From Methanoregula sp. (GTDB lineage Archaea; Halobacteriota; Methanomicrobia; Methanomicrobiales; Methanospirillaceae), in the NCBI GenBank assembly GCA_026625165.1, contig CP112999.1:1864741-1928740 (forward strand): a DNA stretch of 64,000 nucleotides, given 5' to 3'. The notes under the pieces were generated by a model. The model saw only the letters and a program-made list of their open reading frames with translations, searched no databases and was not told the origin of the DNA. Shown piece after piece: positions 1 through 17,216 of the stretch. The translations under genes were made by a program, and so were the position numbers. How positions within the stretch are numbered: the first letter of the stretch is position 1; each line of letters starts with the position of its first letter.

Positions 1-2550
<2,550 letters not shown>

Positions 2551-2669
2551 CTAATACTCCGCTAAACCCATTTAACGTCCTGAGTGCAAACCTTTACACG
2601 GCCTCGCAAAGTCATTGGTTTGACTCTCAGCCCTTCCCTCGTGATTCACATCCCGAGGTGCATCAAATC

Positions 2670-2724
2670 AGCTCTATGGGGATTCGAACCCAATCTCTTT
2701 CGCCCCATTTCCGGCGGTAGAGCT
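2670..2724 (-). pseudogene. tRNA-like remnant in the 16S-23S spacer
   Basis: The minus strand holds a 55-base tRNA-like fold where archaeal rRNA operons usually carry tRNA-Ala. A 7-bp acceptor-like stem pairs AGCTCTA (2718-2724) with TAGAGCT (2670-2676). A T-arm with a TTCGAAT loop lies at 2677-2693 (one mismatch in the stem), and a single short stem-loop CGCC/GGCG takes the place of the D- and anticodon arms. There is no recognisable D-arm, no normal 7-base anticodon loop and no encoded CCA. It is too short for a canonical tRNA. Most likely this is a decayed tRNA-Ala kept as a structural spacer element; a non-canonical minimal tRNA is much less likely. Confidence 0.5.
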
Positions 2725-2755
2725 TTTCTCATTGTTGACACCAGCAATTTTACAG

Positions 2756-2790
2756 TTTGTTTAGTAACCGCGTTCCCGAAATAAAATTCG
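2756..2790 (-). other. 16S processing stem, 3' half, with bulge-helix-bulge
   Basis: Bases 2756-2771 are exactly complementary (16 of 16) to 4309-4324 on the other side of 16S. Next to this stem, 3-base unpaired stretches (2772-2774 and 2781-2783, facing 4306-4308 and 4296-4298) flank a short helix CCGAA/TTCGG (2776-2780 with 4299-4303). This is the bulge-helix-bulge architecture cut by the archaeal tRNA-splicing endonuclease to release pre-16S. Confidence 0.85.
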
Positions 2791-2792
2791 TT

Positions 2793-4261
<1,469 letters not shown>

Positions 4262-4290
4262 TCAAAGAATATACGCACACTTTACTTACT

Positions 4291-4324
4291 GAACTTTATT
4301 CGGAATTAGCGGTTACTAAACAAA
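4291..4324 (-). other. 16S processing stem, 5' half
   Basis: Partner of 2756-2790. GCGGTTACTAAACAAA at 4309-4324 pairs perfectly with the 3' flank, followed by the bulge-helix-bulge (TTA bulges at 4306-4308 and 4296-4298 around TTCGG). Confidence 0.85.
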
Positions 4325-4349
4325 TTTCCGCATTGCCAGTATCAACGTC

Positions 4350-4387
4350 AGACACAAACACCGGTCAGGCCGGTTATCGTTGTGTCT
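4350..4387 (-). other. rRNA leader hairpin
   Basis: AGACACAA (4350-4357) pairs with TTGTGTCT (4380-4387), with an inner ACCGG/CCGGT helix, forming a strong stem-loop in the pre-16S leader. It could take part in folding or processing of the primary transcript. The pairing is seen; the role is inferred. Confidence 0.6.
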
Positions 4388-4465
4388 CCATCAATCGGTG
4401 TGAGATTGAAAATTTTTCGTCGTGTTTTTTTAGTTTAAACACGGGCTTATAGTGTAGGTTTCAAG

Positions 4466-4477
4466 GATATTTATACC
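4466..4477 (-). promoter_or_regulatory. TATA box of the rRNA operon (P1)
   Basis: On the minus strand this reads GGTATAAATATC, a near-ideal archaeal TATA box. A start about 25 bases downstream (near 4443-4448) would give a leader of about 180 bases before 16S. Confidence 0.7.
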
Positions 4478-4635
4478 TTGTTACCGAGCCTTGAGTTCCA
4501 TCAAAAACCGCGCCGGATTTTACCGGGCTTTTGCGGGTTCATCATCGGAATACGAGAACACATTATTAACCGCTCAACCATTTAAAGATAACCCTCGAAG
4601 CACCATATTTTTCCCGTCGGGAAAATTTGAAGAGG

Positions 4636-4644
4636 ATTATATTT
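4636..4644 (-). promoter_or_regulatory. possible second TATA box of the rRNA operon
   Basis: The minus strand reads AAATATAAT, about 170 bases upstream of P1. Tandem promoters are plausible for an rRNA operon, but only the AT-rich box is seen. The rest of 4478-4758 holds no convincing gene. Confidence 0.3.
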
Positions 4645-4758
4645 CTAATGGATACGGCTGTTTTGGCCGATTTGTGCTGGGATCCGGGTTGCTTTTAACT
4701 TCGGGAGAGGCTGCCATCACGGGAGAGATGGGAAGCGCGCAACGTCGTTATGGTATCC

Positions 4759-5265
4759 TCACTTCCTGACCAGCTTTTTATTCCGGATGAGATCGCGCAA
4801 TCCGATGAGATCCACCGCAACAGGCTTTTTGTATCCTGCCTTCACTTCTAGACTCCGGGGGATGCGGTACCTCTGGATCGCATCATCATCGGTAACGAAA
4901 TAATTACAGTCGTACGATATTGCATACCCGAGATGGACCCGGTCCGTGATCTGGTTGGTTATCCTGTTGTCGGTAATGTCCTTTCCCATCTCGTAACAGA
5001 TGTAACTCAATTCATCGTTCGGATAGAGGGTGATTATATTCCATTCCCTTATCATCGCGACGATTTCATTGATGTTATCTACGGCGGCTCTTTCGTCCCG
5101 CAACATCTCGTTAAACGTTTCGCCAAGAACGGTGATCGACGTGACGATGGTAAAATCCTGGTTCCGTGCATGATCAATGACTTTTCTGCATCGATCTTCT
5201 GCAATGCATCTGAAAAAAATGCACGAGTCTAAAAAAATGGTATCGGTTTTGAAAAGATTGATCAT
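4759..5265 (-). CDS. PIN-domain nuclease, VapC-like
   Basis: A 168-residue protein with the PIN fold. Acidic metal-binding positions appear in the usual order: D13 (FLDSCIFF), E49 (GETF), D108 (TDRVHLGYA) and D126-D128 (TDDD). PIN nucleases cut RNA and many act as toxins of toxin-antitoxin pairs. The C-terminus is about 35 residues longer than a minimal VapC. The ATG overlaps the stop of a 57-codon gene upstream (ATGA), the arrangement expected of an antitoxin-toxin pair. It could also be a housekeeping PIN protein. The PIN assignment is firm; the toxin role is inferred from context. Confidence 0.75.
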   Translation of the reverse strand: MINLFKTDTIFLDSCIFFRCIAEDRCRKVIDHARNQDFTIVTSITVLGETFNEMLRDERAAVDNINEIVAMIREWNIITLYPNDELSYICYEMGKDITDNRITNQITDRVHLGYAISYDCNYFVTDDDAIQRYRIPRSLEVKAGYKKPVAVDLIGLRDLIRNKKLVRK

Positions 5266-5435
5266 CGGATCGAGCGCAACCGTTTCATTCTCGCTTCATG
5301 TTCCTCGGTGCTGGTTGCGCTGACAATAATCCCCCGGGAGTCCACACCGCCGCCGAACGGGAGCAGGCCCCGCTCATAGACCTTCCCGATAACAGCCGTG
5401 TGATCATATTCATCTTTCCTGAGCATCTGGCACAT
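5262..5435 (-). CDS. 57-residue protein, candidate antitoxin of the PIN module
   Basis: A small ORF starting at ATG 5433-5435 behind a GGGAGG ribosome site, ending in a TGA that overlaps the PIN start by four bases. The protein (MCQMLRKDEYDH...) has a central VIGKVYERGLLPFGG segment, reminiscent of the short beta-strand antitoxins that use a VYExGxLxPL pattern (AF2212-like), followed by a charged helix-like tail (TEEHEARMKRLRSIR). The similarity is by eye only. Translational coupling and size support a TA partner; no DNA-binding motif is evident. Confidence 0.55.
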   Translation of the reverse strand: MCQMLRKDEYDHTAVIGKVYERGLLPFGGGVDSRGIIVSATSTEEHEARMKRLRSIR

Positions 5436-5513
5436 CAGGATTCCTCCCGGTTTTCTTTATTTATCTTTATTATCTGTCATAATAACTGTTCCTGCATTGC
5501 AGGATCTTCCTGA

Positions 5514-5702
5514 TTAAATAATAGTTTTCTCCCGGATCTTCCGGTATTCATCATCGGAATCCAGTTCGACAAAGTCGCCCTCGCGAACGATCCTGCGTAA
5601 AGGGGCAACAACGTCATTTTCCCCGGATATATCCATGCCATCCTGATCGGTGGACAGGGATGCAGGTTTATTCTTGGTCCGTCGCTTCCGGGATTTTACC
5701 AT
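5514..5702 (-). CDS. small charged hypothetical protein
   Basis: A 62-residue ORF with a basic start (MVKSRKRRTKNK) and an acidic end (ELDSDDEYRKIREK). ATG at 5702 lies behind an AAGGAAGG-like site. It is on the same strand as the PIN pair, 78 bases upstream, so it may be the first gene of that unit. No family was recognised. It may be an accessory antitoxin or a regulator, or it may not be translated. Confidence 0.4.
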   Translation of the reverse strand: MVKSRKRRTKNKPASLSTDQDGMDISGENDVVAPLRRIVREGDFVELDSDDEYRKIREKTII

Positions 5703-6268
5703 AAACAGCCTTCCTTCCGGATTTTCATAGTTTGATAGTGTTGCTATACACCTTTTCCGCTTGCCAATCTAACGTGAAGATCTCCTTAGGGATATCTTCT
5801 CAAGTCCGCTTATGCGGCTTTCAGCCGGTCTTAACCCCCCCACCCCTTTTTGAAAAAATCCTAAGCAGGGGGTGGCATGATGGGGGATTGTACCTGCACT
5901 ACCACCCATGACCCCCCTTGCCCCTCCGACCCCATCCAAAACCAAATTTCTCGTCTTAAAACCACACCAAAATCAGGGCCGGAAACAAAGGGGGGTTGGG
6001 GGGGTCGCACCACTTTTTGCGGGTGGGGGGAGGGGGGTGCCCCCCCCCCACAGCCGCACCATGCCCGGCAATGGCCTGCCTCGGTTTCAACGCCGGTGAT
6101 TGTTGGAAAATGGGGGATTATGACCCGTCCGGAACAGTACACCGGGAAGGCCGCGACCGGAGCTGCGTGACCCCCTGTGACCCCCCCACCAACCACCAAG
6201 GATTTATCGAAACCTCTCGTTGTCCTTTATCACACTTTGTTATCAAAGAATACAGAACGAGTTGAACC
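5703..6268. other. gene-free stretch with long G and C tracts
   Basis: No convincing gene: the ORFs in both strands are low-complexity products of G/C runs. The region holds a dense G-tract block at about 5991-6050 (runs of 6, 7, 3, 6 and 6 G, then a run of about 10 C) and further C-runs at 6167-6190. GAAGAT...ATCTTC at 5776-5799 is an imperfect member of the hairpin family seen elsewhere in the window. An AT-rich box near 6205-6215 may serve the plus-strand gene at 6269. Homopolymer lengths could be affected by sequencing error. Confidence 0.5.
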
Positions 6269-6772
6269 ATGGCAAAATTCCGGCAGAAGAAGGGAACGAA
6301 CAGCTCAGTCCGCACGCTGAAGCGGCCTGTTCCCGATATATCGGCATTCGAGTCTGTAATCCAGTCACTGATCCTGAAAAACCCGTTCGGGTGCACATCT
6401 TACATGAGCGGGAAGAAGAACCACCCGCCGATTGAGAAGGTGCGGGAGATGTACACCGCGAAGTTTGTGTACGAGAATAAGAAGGGGAAGCGGATTGGGA
6501 CAGGCTCGGAGACCTACAACACGATCGACGGCTACCATACCGGCATCGCAGCGGTGATCTCGAACATGGCAAACATCGCTTCCCATGGCGGGAAACCGCA
6601 GCACACCCCCGGCGCCGACCTCTTTTCCGTGACCCTGAAATGCAATAACCCCAAAAGCGGGCTGTATTTCCTGAGCATCGCCCGTAACCGGGTCACGCTC
6701 TCATCGTACAACGACGAGGGGATTCGGAAACGGGTCGAGAAATGGGCAAACGGTGTGCCGGAGCTGATGTAA
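6269..6772 (+). CDS. uncharacterised 167-residue protein
   Basis: The ORF starts with a basic tail (MAKFRQKKGTN) and is soluble, with no signal or membrane segment. I see no catalytic motif. The middle contains GxGSETYNTIDGYHTGI and a strand-rich C-terminal half (SVTLKC, GLYFLSIARNRVTLSSY). Codon use looks like the neighbouring genes, so it is probably real. It stands alone between the G-tract region and the convergent scpA, and nothing in the context suggests a function. Confidence 0.7.
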   Translation: MAKFRQKKGTNSSVRTLKRPVPDISAFESVIQSLILKNPFGCTSYMSGKKNHPPIEKVREMYTAKFVYENKKGKRIGTGSETYNTIDGYHTGIAAVISNMANIASHGGKPQHTPGADLFSVTLKCNNPKSGLYFLSIARNRVTLSSYNDEGIRKRVEKWANGVPELM

Positions 6773-6836
6773 GATACAGAAAGAGAGGAGCTGGGTCATC
6801 CGGGAATGCCCTGCTCTTCAGGGCTGAATAAAAAGA

Positions 6837-7739
6837 TCAGGTGCTGTCCTGCAAGGCCTTTTCCATTGAATCGCCCGCTTTACACACCTGCACGAAAACA
6901 TCCCCGAAGAACTCGTCCTGCCTGAGAGCGCACTGGCCTTCGAGCATTAAAAAGAGCAGCGGGATGTAGACTTCCGGGACGTCCCAGCCCAGTTTCCGGC
7001 AGAGCTCGGCAAGCGTCATCTCCTCCTCGCGGATCATGCATTTTAAACATTCCTGGTACACGGTTGTTGCCGAATCCTGGTACCCCTCATCATGGGCGAT
7101 GCCTACAACATCGTCCGCTTCGATAAGGCACACATCGGACTCGGTCAGCCTGCGGCGCCGGCGCTCCTCCTTTTCGAGGTTCTTGAGCTCGATGATCAGC
7201 TCAAAGAGCGTGACCGGGCTCCTGCGCAGGTTTTTCCGGTCCAGCCGCCGCTGTATCTCGCGCTCGAGCTGCTCGATAGGGCCGAGCCTGCCTTCATACT
7301 CGAACTCCGAGTCAAGTGAAATGTCAAAGTCATCGCCAAACCCTGCATCTTCGTCCCCGCTGTCTCCCCCCTCATCCGTTGCATCCGCGAGGTGTTCGGA
7401 TTTCATTCGTAACAGAGTAGATGCATAAAAAAGCGTGCGCCCGGATACCCGGAGATTCAGCTGCCGGCAACGCTCCAGCTCGTTTAAGAACCGGTCGGTT
7501 ACTTCGAGAATATTGATGTTCCACGGGTCGATCTCCCCCCGTTCTGCCATCCCGACAAGGATCTCAACCGGGTCTTCCACAACGGGGAGATTATCCGGCA
7601 CATCCTGCTGGCTGGCTACGGGATTTCTCTCACCGGTTACCCCATTATTTTCTAAAGTTTTGTCCCGCGTTTCATCCGGAGTGGTTCCGGCAGAAGGGGT
7701 TTTCTCTTCTGTTAGGCCGTGGGCCTGTTCCTCACTCAT
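6837..7739 (-). CDS. scpA: segregation and condensation protein A (kleisin)
   Basis: A kleisin that bridges the SMC heads in the chromosome-organising complex. The 300-residue protein has an acidic N-terminal extension of about 45 residues, then the ScpA core with the hallmark DPWNINILEVTDRFL, a variable acidic linker (DEGGDSGDEDAG) and a C-terminal winged-helix region. The ATG overlaps the smc stop by 8 bases, so the two are translationally coupled. No scpB follows; the next gene is convergent. Confidence 0.93.
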   Translation of the reverse strand: MSEEQAHGLTEEKTPSAGTTPDETRDKTLENNGVTGERNPVASQQDVPDNLPVVEDPVEILVGMAERGEIDPWNINILEVTDRFLNELERCRQLNLRVSGRTLFYASTLLRMKSEHLADATDEGGDSGDEDAGFGDDFDISLDSEFEYEGRLGPIEQLEREIQRRLDRKNLRRSPVTLFELIIELKNLEKEERRRRRLTESDVCLIEADDVVGIAHDEGYQDSATTVYQECLKCMIREEEMTLAELCRKLGWDVPEVYIPLLFLMLEGQCALRQDEFFGDVFVQVCKAGDSMEKALQDST

Positions 7740-10700
7740 TTGCCTTTACCCCGGTGACAAGCGTGCTCTTGTCAGGCCGCAGCGTGACGCCCATGATCCG
7801 CTGTGCCTCGGTGATCATCGGCTTTCTGAGGGAAACGATCACAAACTGTGAGGTCGAAGAAAGTTCTTTGATCATCAGGGCGATCCGCTCCACGTTCGAC
7901 CCGTCCAGAGACATATCCACCTCGTCGAACGCATAGAACGGCGCCGGGATATGTTGCTGGATCGAGAAGATGAATGCGAGAGTCGTGAGCGACTTTTCAC
8001 CGCCGGAGAGCGATGAGAGGAGATGCACGGTCTTGTCCCGGGGCTGGACCGCAAACGTCAGCCCCCCGGCAAACGGGTCCTCTTCGTTCTCCAGCACGAG
8101 GTGACCGCTACCGCTCGTGAGGCGTGCAAAAACCTCCCGGAAATTGGCGTCGATCGCTGTGAATGCAGTAGTGAACGCCTCGTACTTCATCTGTTCGAAT
8201 TTCTGGATCCGCTCGAGGATATTGGTCCGCTCGCGGGAGAGGGTCTCCTTCTTCTCGGTCCGTTCATCGACCTGCTTCTGGACCTTCTCGTACTCCTCAA
8301 TGGCGAGCATGTTCACAGCCCCGATCTTCCGAATCGCCCCGTCCGCCTCTGCAATCTTCCCTTCAATCTCAGAGAGCGTGAGATCGGTCTTTGCCTCCCC
8401 TACCTGCTGCCGCAGCGTCTCGACTTCGATACCCAGTCCCCGTGCACGCTCTTCAATTGCAGACATCTGAACATGAAGCCGTTCTTTTTCCGTGTCGAAC
8501 TTTAAGAGTTTCTGCTCTGACTCGGAGATGTGTCCCGAGACCTCGGTGCGTTTGCCCCGCAATTCGTCAAGTTCGCCTGAGAACTCCTTCTGCCTTCCTT
8601 CGAGTGATGCGATCTGCGTCTTGTGGGTGGCGATCTGCTCATTCTGGGTCCCGATATCGGTATCAATCTGCCGGTTGCGCTCCTCCTGCCGGTTCCGGTC
8701 ATCGGTGAGTTCCCCAAGCCTCGAATTGAAATGAGACCGTTCCCGGGTGACGTCATTTATGTCGGCGTCCTTGTTCCTGAGGCGGCGGTCAAGCTCCTCG
8801 ATCTCGCGCTTCTTCTTTTCCAGCTGCTCGGTGAGCTGCGGGATGTTTGTATCGTCAAGACGCCGCTTGATCTCCTCGATCTCTCCATTCAGTGCGTTGA
8901 TGGCGCCTGTTGTTGAGTCCAGTTCGGCTTCAAGAGAGCCGAGCTCGTCTGCTCCCCCCTTCGTTTCACCCTGTTGGCGTGCGACAGCCTGTTCAATGGT
9001 CTGTTTCTCGACCGAGATCGCCTCGAACCTCCGGTTGAACTCTTCGGTGAACATCCCGAACCGGGCGACTTTCTGGTCGATCTCCCCTCGGGCTGTCCGC
9101 TTTGCATCCACCTCTTCGGTAAGCCGTTTTACCGCCGCTTCGATCACCGATGCCTCGCTGACCAGTTCCGTAAGGTGTGCACGGATGCGGACAATCTCGT
9201 CATCAACCGCAGCGCCGAATCCCCTGAGAGGCTTTTTTGTGGCGCCGCCGGTCATTGCACCGCTCCGTTCGAGGAGTTCCCCTTCGAGCGTCACCATCCG
9301 GTACTTCCCGATCAGTTTCCGTGCCCGTTCGAGCGTATCGACGACCACAGTACCCCCAAGCGCAACGGCAAATGCCTTGTCGTATTTCGGGTCGTACTCG
9401 ATCAGGTTCACGGCGTAACCTATGACACCCGGCTCCTTTACCGGGGGAAGCGCTGGCGGCTTGAGCTTATTGAGAGGGAGGAAGGTAACCCGCCCGAGCT
9501 TCTCGTTCTTGAGGTACTGGATTGCCTCTGCCGCTACATGGTCCGTGTCAACGATTACAAACTGTAGTTTGTTGCCGGCAGCAATGTTGAGCGCGGTCGC
9601 GTATTCCCCGGGTGCCTTCCCAAGGGACGCAACCGTACCGTGCACCCCCTCCATCGCACAGACTGCTTCGATCGCCCTGCCGCCGGACTCCCCCCGTGCC
9701 TGCTGAGCCGCCTCGAGCCGGAACGCGTCCTGCTCCGCCTCTTTGATCTCCCCCCGCAACCTTTCCAGCATTGAGCGCTGTGCAAAAAGCGTGCCTTCGA
9801 GTTCGGACAGGGTACGGTCGAGCGCTTTTTTCTCTTTTGCGAGGTCAGAGACACTCTTTTGTGAATCCGTCAGCTGGGTGTTCTTTGAAGTGTACTCCTC
9901 ATCAAGTTGCCGGAGCAATGCGGTAAGGCGTTCGAGCTCCGAGGTCCTCATCCGGCTCTTCTCGATAAGCATGTCCTGCTGGTGTAGGAGCGAGGAGCGT
10001 GCACCCTTCTTCTCCTCGACCTGCTGGAGCAGGGCGAAGAGCTTGTCACGGGCCCCCTGGGTATCCTCGCTGTGGGACCGTATCTCGGCATCGGTCTTTT
10101 CCAGCTGCGCCTTTGCGGTCGCCAGTTCCATCGCGATATTAGTCCGGTCAATGGAGAGTGTCCGTACCTGTTCGGTGCACTCCGCAACCCGCCCCTCCGC
10201 CCGCTTTGTGTCCATGTAGACGCGGTTGATGGTCTCGAGGTTTGTCTCTTTTTCCTTTTTGAGGCGTAATATTGCCTGTTCGGCGACCTTGATCCCGCCC
10301 TTTGCCTCCTCAAGCTCGGCGATCAGTTTCAGGTAGTCAGACCCGCTCTTTTTATTTATCGCTTCGTCGATGTCCTTTAGGTCTGCCCGGAGATAGGAGA
10401 GCTCGTTTTCCTCAAGGCCCCGGTCGGCTTCAATCCGGGAGAGCGAGATCTTCTGCTCCTCGCTCACCCTTATCAGGGTGCCAAGTTCCTTTTCCCGGTC
10501 ATGGAGCTGGGCGGCTGACCGGCAGTTCTGGAAAAAGGTGAGCTCTTTTTGCCATTTCTGGTACTCGAGGGCATGCTCCCTTTCCCGCTTCAACTCGTTT
10601 GTCCGCTTCTGGAGCTCGAGCAGAAGCAGCTCCTCGCGTTCGATCCGCTCCCGCACGATGTCCAGTTCCCGCAGCGCCTGCTCTTTTTTGGAGTCAAACT

Positions 10701-11172
10701 CGGCGACACCGGCAATCTCATCGATGATCTTCCTACGCTCGAAATCGCTCATCTCCATGATCCGGGTGACATCTCCCTGCATCACGACGTTGTACCCATG
10801 GGGTTTGATGCCATGTTTTGAGAGGTGGTCAACGATGTCACTCTGCTTGCACACGCGGTCATTCAGGTAATTGTAACTGTAATACCCGTTACCCGTCCGC
10901 TTGATACGGCGCCGGATCTTTGTACCGTCCGAAAACTCCAGCGCGACTTCAGCGGTATTTTTACCGGAATTGAGGTTGATGAGGTCGGTCAGCTTTTCCG
11001 CTCTCAGGTTCCGTGCGGTTGAGAGGGCAAGGACAAAAAGGATCGAGTCGATGATATTGCTCTTTCCCGAACCGTTGGGCCCGGAGATGACGGTGAACCC
11101 TTCAAGAAAAGGAATTTTTGTCTTTTTTGAAAAAGACTTGAAATTATCGATCTCCAGCTCTGTGATATGCAA
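7732..11172 (-). CDS. smc: chromosome segregation protein SMC
   Basis: An SMC ATPase of 1146 residues that compacts and segregates DNA as a dimer with ScpA. Walker A GPNGSGKS is at 31-38. Two long coiled coils flank a hinge near 500-680 with the typical glycine-rich hinge pattern (YAVNLIEYD, GGTVVVDTLE). The ABC signature LSGGEKS is at about 1055-1061 and Walker B FYAFDEVDMSLD just after. Length and order are complete. It is the middle gene of a three-gene operon: a coiled-coil protein ends 16 bases upstream and scpA overlaps downstream. Confidence 0.97.
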   Translation of the reverse strand: MHITELEIDNFKSFSKKTKIPFLEGFTVISGPNGSGKSNIIDSILFVLALSTARNLRAEKLTDLINLNSGKNTAEVALEFSDGTKIRRRIKRTGNGYYSYNYLNDRVCKQSDIVDHLSKHGIKPHGYNVVMQGDVTRIMEMSDFERRKIIDEIAGVAEFDSKKEQALRELDIVRERIEREELLLLELQKRTNELKREREHALEYQKWQKELTFFQNCRSAAQLHDREKELGTLIRVSEEQKISLSRIEADRGLEENELSYLRADLKDIDEAINKKSGSDYLKLIAELEEAKGGIKVAEQAILRLKKEKETNLETINRVYMDTKRAEGRVAECTEQVRTLSIDRTNIAMELATAKAQLEKTDAEIRSHSEDTQGARDKLFALLQQVEEKKGARSSLLHQQDMLIEKSRMRTSELERLTALLRQLDEEYTSKNTQLTDSQKSVSDLAKEKKALDRTLSELEGTLFAQRSMLERLRGEIKEAEQDAFRLEAAQQARGESGGRAIEAVCAMEGVHGTVASLGKAPGEYATALNIAAGNKLQFVIVDTDHVAAEAIQYLKNEKLGRVTFLPLNKLKPPALPPVKEPGVIGYAVNLIEYDPKYDKAFAVALGGTVVVDTLERARKLIGKYRMVTLEGELLERSGAMTGGATKKPLRGFGAAVDDEIVRIRAHLTELVSEASVIEAAVKRLTEEVDAKRTARGEIDQKVARFGMFTEEFNRRFEAISVEKQTIEQAVARQQGETKGGADELGSLEAELDSTTGAINALNGEIEEIKRRLDDTNIPQLTEQLEKKKREIEELDRRLRNKDADINDVTRERSHFNSRLGELTDDRNRQEERNRQIDTDIGTQNEQIATHKTQIASLEGRQKEFSGELDELRGKRTEVSGHISESEQKLLKFDTEKERLHVQMSAIEERARGLGIEVETLRQQVGEAKTDLTLSEIEGKIAEADGAIRKIGAVNMLAIEEYEKVQKQVDERTEKKETLSRERTNILERIQKFEQMKYEAFTTAFTAIDANFREVFARLTSGSGHLVLENEEDPFAGGLTFAVQPRDKTVHLLSSLSGGEKSLTTLAFIFSIQQHIPAPFYAFDEVDMSLDGSNVERIALMIKELSSTSQFVIVSLRKPMITEAQRIMGVTLRPDKSTLVTGVKANE

Positions 11173-11187
11173 AGACTTTCGGCTCCG

Positions 11188-11673
11188 TTACTTCTTTGCA
11201 GGATTGGCTTTCTCATCGTCAACCGCATAGATGAGGTCGCCTGATTTTTTTGCAGAGTCTTTGCCCTTTTTCCTGCCATAACCCGCTGACGCAACGATAT
11301 AATTCTTCTCTCCCCGCCGTGGTTCGAGCTTCATGGTGCCGTCCGTCTGCATGATCATGTCCATTGCCGGTTCCGCCGGTGCTGACGGTTCCTGCCGTGC
11401 GGATTTGGGGCGCATCACGACGGTGCTCCCGCCGGAAGGCGCTGCGCCCCCGGCTGCCGGTTGCTGGGCGCCCTGCACGACAGGCTGCACACGCTTGAGC
11501 TCCTGCCGGCTGCGCTCCTCGCTTGCCTTGGCAAGCTTCATGACAATCGATTTCATATCGAGGAGCTCTTCCGTGATTCCCTTGATAAGGGCCTCCTGCT
11601 CCTTGTTCTTGCGCTCCAGTGCTGCAATGCGGTCATCGCCTGCAGCCCCGCCTGCTGATCCGTTCATCATCAT
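11188..11673 (-). CDS. coiled-coil hypothetical protein upstream of smc
   Basis: A 161-residue protein starting at the first of three consecutive ATG codons (MMMNGSAGG) behind AAGGTGAAAAGG. A TTG start at 11739 would add 22 residues but is less likely. Residues 14-62 form a predicted coiled coil (ALERKNKEQEALIKGITEEL), followed by a flexible Ala/Gly/Pro region and a basic C-terminus. It belongs to no family I recognise. The tight spacing to smc (16 bases) and shared promoter suggest a job linked to SMC-ScpA. Confidence 0.75.
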   Translation of the reverse strand: MMMNGSAGGAAGDDRIAALERKNKEQEALIKGITEELLDMKSIVMKLAKASEERSRQELKRVQPVVQGAQQPAAGGAAPSGGSTVVMRPKSARQEPSAPAEPAMDMIMQTDGTMKLEPRRGEKNYIVASAGYGRKKGKDSAKKSGDLIYAVDDEKANPAKK

Positions 11674-11776
11674 GATCCTTTTCACCTTTTTGACCGGTTC
11701 ATTTCTGGGATTTGAAATCTTTGCATCCTTATTATGCAATTACACGTCTTTACTGGTCGGTATGGACGTGCTTGTA

Positions 11777-11787
11777 CTTATAAATAA
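11777..11787 (-). promoter_or_regulatory. TATA box of the smc operon
   Basis: The minus strand reads TTATTTATAAG, a good archaeal TATA box about 105 bases upstream of the first ORF. A start near 11755 is expected. The remaining bases up to 11989 are AT-rich and should also hold the divergent glyA promoter, which I could not place with confidence. Confidence 0.5.
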
Positions 11788-11989
11788 TAGTATTGTCGCC
11801 TGTCAAGGAAAAAAGGTTTCTGCTCTTTTCCTCGGAAATTTCCCCAGCAGGGGCATGCATATACTTCTTTTTACTAATGCGCTGTCTTTTCGGTTTCAAA
11901 ATTACGGGTAATAAAATGGTATCGCAATATGGCTTGTGTGGCGGGACGAACAAAACTGTATTACCTGATTGAAGCGAACCCTTTTGCAT

Positions 11990-13228
11990 ATGTCTTATCT
12001 GGATAAAACAGATCCGCAGATAGCAGATATTATCGAAAAGGAGCGGTTGCGGCAGCTCAACGGGCTGGAGCTCATCGCATCGGAGAACCTTGTTTCCCGT
12101 GCAGTACTTGAAGCGATGGGATCGGTCATGACCAACAAGTATGCCGAAGGATACCCCGGCAAGCGATATTATGGCGGGTGCGAGTACCACGATATGGCCG
12201 AGAACCTTGCCCGGGACAGGTTAAAAGTACTATTCGGGGCACAGCATGCAAACGTCCAGCCGCACTCCGGCACCCAGGCAAACATGGCGGTCTATTTTGC
12301 GTTCATGAAACTGGGAGAGGGATTGCTGAGCATGAAACTCACGCAGGGCGGGCATCTTTCCCACGGTTCGCCCGTCAGCTTTACCGGGCAGTTTTATAAA
12401 GTGACCCAGTACAGCCTTGACCCAAAGACCGAGATGCTTGATTACGGCATGGTCGGGGAGATGGCAAAGAAGGAAAAGCCGAAGATCATTGTCTGCGGTG
12501 CATCCGCATACCCCCGCACCATCGACTTTAAGGCATTCCAGGAGATTGCCGATGATGCCGGGGCGTACTGCATGGCAGACATCGCCCATATCGCCGGGCT
12601 CTGTGCGACCGGCGTCCACCCCACTTCTGTCGGCGTCACCAACTTCACCACAACCACAACCCATAAGACGCTCCGCGGACCCCGCGGCGGGGCAATCATG
12701 TGCAATACCGAATATGCACAGGCAATCGACAAGGCAGTATTTCCCGGCATGCAGGGCGGCCCGCTCATGCACACGATCACGGCAAAGGCAGTATGTTTTG
12801 AAGAGGCGCTCCGGCCGTCGTTCAAAGAATACAATAAGCAGATCGTAAAGAATGCAAAGGCGCTCGCTGAGACCTTGATGGACTGCGGGCTGCGCCTTGT
12901 CTCCGGCGGTACGGACAACCACCTGATGCTTGTGGATCTCAGCGAGCAGGGGATCACCGGCCTTGAAGCCGAGAACGCACTGGGTAAAGCCGGCATCACG
13001 GCAAACAAGAACACCATACCCAACGAAACCAAGAGCCCGTTTGTGACAAGCGGCCTGCGGATCGGCACCCCGGCGGTCACTTCCCGCGGCATGAAGGAGG
13101 CAGAGATGCGCCATATAGGGAACTGGATCGCGACTGTCGTCAAAGACATCCACAATGAAGCTGCCATGAAGGACATAAAGACAAGGGTCGCTGCAATGGC
13201 GGGCAGATTCCCGCTCTACCCGGAGTGA
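11990..13228 (+). CDS. glyA: serine hydroxymethyltransferase
   Basis: A PLP enzyme interconverting serine and glycine while moving a one-carbon unit to a tetrahydropterin. The 412-residue protein is collinear with bacterial and archaeal GlyA: SENLVS near 31-36, the substrate region [13 protein letters not shown] at 51-63, the DIAHIAGL loop, and the PLP lysine K226 in [14 protein letters not shown]. The start at ATG 11990 (MSYLDKTDP) fits the family; an upstream in-frame ATG would add 7 residues. It is followed by folD after 26 bases, forming a one-carbon cluster. Confidence 0.96.
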
Positions 13229-15860: not shown

Positions 15861-17216
15861 TTAATTATCCTCATCGGTTTTTTTAATGTCGCTTGCGATG
15901 TAAATTTCAATCGTTTTTACAAGAGTATCAAGATGTTTTTCCAATGGAGGTGTTATTGCATCGAGCCAGTGCGGGATACCAATAAGATATTCCATTGATT
16001 TTGTGGGTTCTACATTTTCAATTCTGAAGGGAATAATAATCAACTCGTTCTTGACTGCAGTTGTAAGTTCCCGCAATACGTGCTGGGATTTGTTCGAATG
16101 TGATGAGAAGATCAATACCATTATCCTGCTTCCTTCAATTCCCCGAACAATTGCCTCAGGGAAATTTTTCCCGGGAGGTACATCCCGTGGCGCAATCCAG
16201 CACCTGATATTCCGGGACTCAATTTTTGCACATGCAGCATCTGCAACCGGTTTGTTCACCTGCGCATAACTGATAAAGACATCGTGGTGGGATTTTGCCG
16301 GGGGGGAACCGGGTACAGTGGAGGCTGAAACCGGTGGGTGAGGGAGTGTCACTGGAGTTTTTTGCTTATGGTTCCTATATGCATATATTCCCCCGCCAAG
16401 AGCAATTACAAGCATGACAATAACCAGCGGCAAAAACAACGCTCGAAGGTTGGGCACGGGAGGGGTTACATCCTGGGAAGCCGTTCCAGCCATGGGCTGA
16501 GCTGTTGAACCTGAGATTGTGACAGGCACGGCGGTCTTCTTGGGGTTTGTGCTATTCGGGAGCAGGTACGAGATGATGATCTGCCTGTTGTCTGCTGCCA
16601 TCTCGAGATTCGGATCGAGCGAAAGGGCTTTGTCATAAGCTGCCAGCGCTTCCTTGTATTTTCCAAGGTTCTGCAGTGCATAGCCTTTGTTCCCCCAGGA
16701 TTTTGCATAGGATGGGTTGATGGAAATCGACATGTCAGCAGCATCAATAGCATCCTGGTACCGGTTGAGTTTTGAAAGTGAAACGGCCTTAAGATCCCAG
16801 CCGGTGTAACTGTTGGGGTCAAGGGAAATTGCTTTTTGTGCAGCATCAAGACCGTCCTTGTGTCGTCCCAGTGAATTAAGAATAGCAGATTTCATTACCC
16901 ATGCATTGATAAAATCCGGGTCAATCGATAAGGCTTTTTCACAAGCATCGAGTGCCTCCTGGTCCCGGTTAAGGTTCTTCAGTGCATTTGCCTTATTGAG
17001 CCATGCATTTTTATTGCCGGAATCAATGGCGAGCGCTTTTTCCGCGGCATCAAGAGACTCGTCCCATCTTCCGGAGTTTGCAAATGATTTGCTTGCCTGC
17101 ACCCAGTAAACTGCAGTCTCAGCACAGGCATGCGGGACAAGGGCAGACAATATCAGAAAAAGGACAAGGAGGCGGGTTGACTGCAGCCCCGTCCCGCAGT
17201 TTTGAAGAGTCATCAC
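15861..17216 (-). CDS. membrane TPR protein with cytoplasmic TIR domain
   Basis: A 451-residue protein. A signal peptide spans 1-32 (LLVLFLILSALVPHACA). About five TPR units of 34 residues cover 36-205 (repeating ALxIDPxNxxAWxxKAxAL). A Thr/Pro/Ser linker is followed by one TM helix at 259-280 and a basic stop-transfer (RNHKQK). A TIR domain spans 309-438: HDVFISYA, the BB-loop-like CWIAPRDVPPG, and VLRELTTAV, whose E383 aligns with the catalytic glutamate of NAD-cleaving TIRs. Predicted topology puts the TPR solenoid outside and the TIR inside. It is a single gene with its own promoter. It could be a cell-surface sensor or an immune effector. Confidence 0.85.
   Translation of the reverse strand: MMTLQNCGTGLQSTRLLVLFLILSALVPHACAETAVYWVQASKSFANSGRWDESLDAAEKALAIDSGNKNAWLNKANALKNLNRDQEALDACEKALSIDPDFINAWVMKSAILNSLGRHKDGLDAAQKAISLDPNSYTGWDLKAVSLSKLNRYQDAIDAADMSISINPSYAKSWGNKGYALQNLGKYKEALAAYDKALSLDPNLEMAADNRQIIISYLLPNSTNPKKTAVPVTISGSTAQPMAGTASQDVTPPVPNLRALFLPLVIVMLVIALGGGIYAYRNHKQKTPVTLPHPPVSASTVPGSPPAKSHHDVFISYAQVNKPVADAACAKIESRNIRCWIAPRDVPPGKNFPEAIVRGIEGSRIMVLIFSSHSNKSQHVLRELTTAVKNELIIIPFRIENVEPTKSMEYLIGIPHWLDAITPPLEKHLDTLVKTIEIYIASDIKKTDEDN

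Follow-up and report, generated by a model that had tools for sequence, protein, structure and literature searches.

A TPR-TIR membrane protein of Toll-like predicted layout in a Methanoregula, and RyR-domain genes beside some of its relatives

The 64,000-nucleotide stretch of Methanoregula sp. DNA analysed here (the whole of it is called the window) encodes a protein in which TPRs are predicted to lie outside the cell and a TIR domain in the cytoplasm, with a single transmembrane (TM) helix between them; this topology, read from sequence, is well supported. We propose, with about an even chance of being right, that this single-pass protein is a receptor which makes an NAD-derived signal that a RyR-domain protein reads or tunes. 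It is one form of a larger receptor family, as TIRs of this subfamily are widely distributed among bacteria, where the domains mostly stand in the reverse order. More tentatively, and well short of an even chance, archaeal and bacterial members may be modular surface TIR receptors that convert an outside cue into a cyclic ADP-ribose (cADPR)-type messenger for RyR proteins, some of them membrane proteins with a TrkA_N (RCK-like) domain. The RyR neighbourhood of some relatives appears to be a new observation and is the part that could make the window protein matter; in the parts of the literature covered, neither TIR-RyR gene pairs nor a family of membrane-bound TIR receptors in prokaryotes was found described. 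RyR domains are reportedly treated in a 2015 survey from Burroughs, Aravind and co-workers.

The window protein and its predicted topology

The gene and its parts are the following:

15861..17216, minus strand: whole gene, 451 aa from GTG (open reading frame (ORF) call); an ATG in codon 2 (17213) gives 450 aa
17118..17216, minus strand: predicted signal peptide, aa 1-33, with an ACA|ET-type end (hydropathy and AxA motif; low-confidence helix in AlphaFold2)
16563..17114, minus strand: TPR ectodomain of five repeats and a capping helix, aa 35-218 (Pfam, AlphaFold2)
16374..16436, minus strand: TM helix, aa 261-281 (hydropathy 2.66; AlphaFold2 helix, pLDDT ~57)
16293..16373, minus strand: basic stop-transfer and flexible linker, aa 282-308 (charge count; pLDDT <50)
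15894..16292, minus strand: TIR domain, aa 309-441 (Pfam; pLDDT 91.5 when aa 309-447 were modelled alone with 80 alignment rows; fold matches)
16170..16202, minus strand: BB-loop motif CWIAPRDVPPG, aa 339-349, with a box-2-like RDxxPG (TIR alignment)
16068..16070, minus strand: candidate catalytic Glu383, codon gaa (invariant in 80/80 aligned rows)

Pfam matches the protein with TPR_1 (5.9e-34) and TIR_2 (4.6e-20). Its orthologue L053, from a Methanoregula sp. record, aligns from the Met of the codon-2 ATG onwards; the two are 74% identical with a dN/dS of 0.19 (0.20 for the TPR and 0.095 for the TIR part, from this single pair), which argues that the ORF is not there by chance. The AlphaFold2 model, built with seven sequences, is numbered from the ATG, so that adding one gives the numbering of the first-pass annotation of this DNA; it contains ten TPR helices (34-199) making up five TPRs, a capping helix (204-217), the TM helix (260-280) and the TIR fold from 312. 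Confidence is low in the signal region and in the linkers 219-259 and 282-308, and at a pTM of 0.48 the relative placement of the domains carries no meaning. The signal peptide, five TPRs, TM helix, basic stop-transfer and TIR with E383 that the first-pass annotation had described are borne out by Pfam, AlphaFold2, hydropathy and charge; the strand, which it had left unstated, is minus.

That annotation had also likened the layout to animal Toll receptors, and prediction supports the comparison. Looking for the same architecture elsewhere gave 13 complete ectodomain-first archaeal proteins, the window's among them, and in all 13 there is a hydrophobic segment at the N terminus and the inner flank of the TM is the more basic one, the start having been shifted by the analyst to an inner Met in four; the AxA motif was found by script in seven of the 13 signal regions, and the signal end of the others was judged by eye. 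Nine carry TPRs according to Pfam. The TPR slot is occupied by a ConA/LamG-like (lectin-like) domain in G185 (PF06439, 2.5e-10), by a beta-propeller in G203 and in G142 (the TIR of the latter being of a different class) and by an unclassified domain in G126. Relatives at large were the best 80 of 590 confirmed loci from a genome-wide contig scan with the pattern CWIAPRD. A TM near the TIR was present in 70 of these best 80 of 590, with more Lys and Arg on its TIR side in 58, equal numbers in eight and fewer in four; among the reversed-order relatives within the same best 80, 51 of 63 agree in predicted sidedness (equal in eight, opposite in four). TPR_1 matched 16 of the 77 proteins in the relatives set, seven of which are ectodomain-first, and one TIR-first protein (G064) has its TPRs behind the TM. 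For a module that swaps ends yet keeps the membrane between itself and the TIR, the best explanation is an outer sensor coupled to a TIR on the inner side. A propeller behind the TM, read by eye in L127 and L201, was dropped; Pfam finds TIR alone in L127.

Relatives, domain order and RyR-domain neighbours

Among 392 genomes sampled from the phylum, 17 carry the TIR subtype (E 1e-15). TIR_2 of any kind is found in 45 of the 150 genomes of the order, in 39 of them above the cut-off, and 55 of the 60 above-cut-off TIR_2 places were examined (omitted were G022, cut by a contig end, and four places at 28.5 to 33.4 bits). Among the loci examined (best 80 of 590), the ectodomain-first order is confined to archaea, where one further protein is cut by a contig end; 54 of the 62 bacterial loci of this set are TIR-first with the TM after the TIR, and by hydropathy none of the 62, three of them end-cut, has the order ectodomain-TM-TIR. 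The five other TPR-type relatives compared are 25-30% identical to the window protein in the ectodomain and 60-65% in the TIR. In a tree of 34 TIRs, from which archaeal L030, L034, L035, L125 and L144 (long or distant) and all but five bacterial rows were omitted, the window protein and L053 are nested in a clade (98/93) that also holds TIR-first and multi-TM proteins from the same genus and family. A single origin of the ectodomain-first order was rejected by AU tests with p values that are not fully a priori, a quick tree having been inspected beforehand (0.014 for 13 rows, namely 12 complete proteins and the partial L066, with G142, whose TIR is of a different class, outside the tree; 0.036 for the 10 TPR rows), and was found in 0/200 bootstrap trees. 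From these sequences, the domain order appears to have been reversed on more than one occasion.

Other arrangements were seen as well. Within the order there is a complete TPR-TIR protein with a long TPR array and without a TM (L144 in G112), and two more have long TPR arrays and no TM in their 5'-cut sequence (L030 in G074; L032 in G120:5262). Three tandem genes in L152 (G118:C62, 1-10000) combine a zinc-ribbon-like start (by eye) with a centrally placed TIR and downstream TM segments. The giant TPR proteins of the window's genome were considered as a source of the ectodomain and set aside; in L218, at 1623-10077, the one of 2454 aa has by eye no evident signal peptide and follows a DnaJ-like membrane protein with TPRs. 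ORFs for giant TPR proteins are found repeatedly in the genus.

A profile search for RyR domains located 26 ORFs, spread over 24 of the 80 TIR loci (best 80 of 590), namely 11 of the 18 archaeal and 13 of the 62 bacterial ones. The profile had been made from 22 PF02026 matches, some of which are genes that also lie in the archaeal loci. The other 56 of these best 80 are without RyR in the locus DNA examined, and no RyR ORF turned up in 31 control loci (0.19 Mb; the window and archaeal TPR loci). Again among the best 80 of 590, the gap between the RyR and TIR genes is at most 279 bp in 23 of the 24 loci, and both lie on the same strand in 19; at two ectodomain-first TPR receptors (L063 and L067) the genes appear to overlap by a few bases, small gaps and overlaps being approximate as the RyR starts were picked by script. 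TIR and RyR also co-occur across the phylum (both in 12 of 392 genomes, TIR only in 5, RyR only in 9, neither in 366; p 7e-14) and across the order (both in 12 of 150, TIR only in 6, RyR only in 6, neither in 126; p 1.6e-9), by Fisher tests that ignore the relatedness of the genomes; in the phylum set, RyR is present in three of the five TIR-bearing genomes that lie outside the order.

Pfam confirmed PF02026 in 18 of the 18 RyR proteins scanned, one from the window's genome and 17 encoded next to or near a TIR gene (17/17; 16 from the loci and one from G019), and found TrkA_N in 11. The 17 partners, as assigned by Pfam, are:

L063, L064, L067, L076, L079, L084, L099, L101, L125, L126 (weak) and G019: RyR and TrkA_N
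L054: RyR and PAS-HisKA
L069 and L114: RyR and AAA (weak matches)
L104, 2119-4695: RyR and RelA/SpoT, with LSDAT (SLOG) matched weakly; the TIR-TM neighbour is planctomycete
L087, 2124-4970: RyR (1.1e-31), TPR-S and a cyclase-like match within a single ORF; the TIR neighbour is from Chloroflexi
L123: RyR alone

The fusion in L104 is a possible link between (p)ppGpp-type and NAD-type signalling. At L146-L147 (G064:C1:198000-219000), five TIR places lie within ~17 kb together with two RyR ORFs, and one TIR is fused to a protein-kinase-like region (by eye).

Beside the window gene itself there is no RyR ORF, nor does the profile search find one in the whole window. The sole PF02026 match of its genome is ~155 kb distant and adjoins the gene of a paralogous TIR receptor; for the window gene, the RyR link is thus one of kinship and would act in trans. 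There, a PAS-HisKA-RyR protein (RyR 2.4e-18) is encoded ~130 bp before a TIR-zinc ribbon-TM protein. The locus (L133, G000:C1:2026000-2044000) has on one strand, at 7577-13085, genes for a multi-TM TIR, a DDE transposase, the PAS-HisKA-RyR protein and the TIR-zinc ribbon-TM-ectodomain protein.

What such a domain might bind is suggested by viral RyR-domain proteins, described in a preprint as binding or cleaving 2'cADPR and 3'cADPR (Lopez Rivera et al. 2026, PMC13232231). The ligand residues given there for phage RyDEP are H75, W78, H100 and D117, and hydrolysis of 2'/3'-cADPR is ascribed to a His/Asp pair; six of eight tested viral homologues bound signals, and those tested, except for DyoEdafos RyDEP, did not cleave them (PMC13232231). 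The portions of this source that were consulted mention neither TrkA nor archaea. H, W, H and D stand at RyDEP spacing in 15 of our 26 RyR ORFs, and in 11 of the 12 archaeal ones; one or more of the four is missing at that spacing in the remaining 11 of the 26. The PAS-HisKA-RyR protein of the window's genome has all four (counted by eye).

A putative signalling pathway and its alternatives

The closest solved folds to the window TIR are SARM1 (Z 18.6, 1.9 A, 126 residues), SPARTA TIR-APAZ (18.1) and the Hydra Toll-related TRR-2 (18.0), which are tied, rows within 1 Z being counted as ties. Glu383 and an HW pair are invariant in all 80 rows of the alignment (the window protein and 79 of the best 80 of 590 loci; L056, cut by a contig end, was excluded). 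CWIAPRD is invariant too, in part by construction as this pattern had been used to find the loci; in a separate TIR set chosen without it, the alpha-C Glu is kept in 19 of 19. At the position of the SARM1 Trp, the residue in the 80 TIRs is Q (46), H (29), D (2) or P, Y and N (one each), and none has W. Other active TIRs share with SARM1 this Trp four residues before the Glu. In SARM1 it binds ligand, and Toshchakov and Neuwald describe the alpha-C Glu as critical for NADase activity where present; its frequency, according to the same source, need not track that activity, and it exceeds 90% at the 383-equivalent site of the TLR1/2/6/10 TIRs (PMC7075850). The TIR by itself cannot reveal whether the domain is active. 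TcpO, a TIR of Methanobrevibacter olleyae, is described as a producer of v-cADPR with an effect in plants that requires the alpha-C Glu (PMC10022894), and by this analogy NAD-to-cADPR-type chemistry is plausible in methanogens. The NAD cleavage suggested by the first-pass annotation is thus upheld in part: the invariant Glu and the RyR genes adjacent to relatives speak for it, and the presence of the Glu in TLRs and the missing Trp speak against it.

In the pathway we favour, a signal peptide would direct the export of the TPR solenoid, which would then lie on the membrane's outer face, with one TM and a cytoplasmic TIR; this is the step that prediction supports well. The TPRs might then sense a ligand or a change in the envelope and cause the TIRs to cluster, upon which these would turn NAD into an ADP-ribose-type nucleotide. 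This could be read or tuned by a RyR protein; in related loci the candidate, judged by gene neighbourhood, is the TrkA_N-RyR or PAS-HisKA-RyR protein of the adjacent gene, and in the window's genome it is perhaps the single PAS-HisKA-RyR protein beside the paralogous receptor.

Several other readings have to be weighed against this pathway. With the layout as proposed, the TIR might be non-enzymatic and act, as in TLRs, as an assembly module recruiting cytoplasmic proteins. We consider this unlikely, if worth keeping in view: the lack of the SARM1-type Trp in 80/80 TIRs, the retained RDxxPG of the BB loop, the place of Hydra TRR-2 among the top fold matches and the frequency of the Glu in TLRs irrespective of activity (PMC7075850) would fit it, but an invariant Glu and the RyR-domain neighbourhood of the relatives do not. 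Alternatively, the TIR could make or consume an NAD-derived molecule for which the RyR protein is the off switch, as a hydrolase or a sponge, rather than the receiver. The hydrolysis by RyDEP and the recurrence of its four residues at like spacing in 15/26 ORFs are in keeping with such a role; however, the RyR domains are here fused to modules of regulator type (PAS-HisKA, TrkA_N, AAA, RelA/SpoT, or TPR-S with the cyclase-like match), and most viral homologues tested bind (6/8) and, DyoEdafos RyDEP excepted, do not cleave (PMC13232231), so that we regard an off switch as improbable. That the TPRs face the cytoplasm, with the protein anchored in the opposite sense, appears very improbable indeed. 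TPRs are often cytoplasmic, and TM-less TPR-TIR proteins exist in the order (complete in G112; alike but 5'-cut in G074 and G120:5262), but this reading has to contend with the hydrophobic N-terminus and positive-inside bias of 13/13 proteins (four with shifted starts) and with the lectin-like domain that fills the same slot in a relative.

Of a different kind is the question of what is sensed. A phage or neighbour protein had been suggested as the ligand, and nothing pointing to either was found. The gene is flanked by genes for an F420 ligase and an MFS transporter, with pterin-binding and RNase III genes also in its surroundings; none of these flanks is ThsA-like, a search for the STALD domain had no match in the window's genome (G000) or in any control genome, and in 16 neighbourhoods compared no neighbour within 8-26 kb matched, TIR/TPR genes aside. 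Membership of a known defence system was rejected, PADLOC giving partial TIR/TPR matches alone (best 9.7e-7 in the window, 3e-9 in a relative), and of 10 pattern matches in viral contigs 0 were confirmed as relatives. It may well be, with a chance only slightly below even, that the receptor monitors the cell envelope, the surface layer or a syntrophic neighbour and not viruses, any NAD signal being regulatory; the housekeeping surroundings, the PADLOC result, the viral contigs and the regulatory appearance of the PAS-HisKA-RyR protein all favour this. Patchy presence, switched domain order and swapped ectodomains are typical of conflict systems, and all three are seen here (presence in 17/392 phylum genomes), which argues against it.

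Should the proposed receptor pathway hold, membrane TIR receptors with interchangeable ectodomains would be, by layout, a prokaryotic counterpart of Toll receptors, and the linked RyR-domain genes offer a concrete and testable downstream partner. They also bear on the question of cADPR binding by ryanodine-receptor domains, as the presumed source of the messenger adjoins an RyR domain in many genomes; if true, one prokaryotic pathway would unite the layout of Toll receptors with the animal cADPR-ryanodine-receptor axis. The prokaryotic TIR systems named in the cited papers, as far as the portions consulted go, sense from inside the cell.

Comparison with known systems

With Toll/TLR and IL-1R proteins the window protein has in common a predicted signal peptide, an ectodomain, one TM, a C-terminal cytoplasmic TIR and the RDxxPG of the BB loop, and its TIR fold matches that of Hydra TRR-2. 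It differs in having TPRs (in relatives a lectin-like domain or propeller) in place of LRR or Ig, in its archaeal host and in a TIR nearest to a prokaryotic subfamily. No LRR is found among 25 of the 27 Pfam matches listed for the protein or among the 20 of a further Pfam listing, and for want of LRRs it is, despite its Toll-like layout, not a member of the Toll family; in cnidarian TIR receptors, Ig is described as replacing LRR (PMC7075850). The bacterial TIR-TM-ectodomain proteins share its TIR subfamily, the one TM and mostly the predicted sidedness, but their TIR is N-terminal, whereas that of the window protein and of the 12 other complete archaeal proteins is C-terminal. The NADase TIRs (SARM1, SPARTA TIR-APAZ and AbTir) have the fold and the alpha-C Glu in common with the window TIR, and archaeal TcpO the alpha-C Glu; unlike the NADase TIRs, the window subfamily has the Trp replaced mostly by Q or H and stands in a membrane receptor layout. 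Thoeris (the TIR protein ThsB with ThsA) is similar in having a TIR sensor with a presumed nucleotide signal, but here the ectodomain is at the membrane, the window gene is without a ThsA-like neighbour and RyR genes lie beside some relatives. Phage RyDEP (PF02026, RyR/R12-domain) resembles the presumed partner in its domain and, for 15/26 ORFs, in the spacing of H, W, H and D, whereas the RyR domains described here are cell-encoded, in fusion with TrkA_N, PAS-HisKA, AAA, RelA/SpoT or TPR-S. As to the TIR-RyR gene pair itself, the window gene is without an adjacent RyR half; a RyR gene does stand next to the genome's paralogue, and one is present in 24/80 of the relatives' loci (best 80 of 590).
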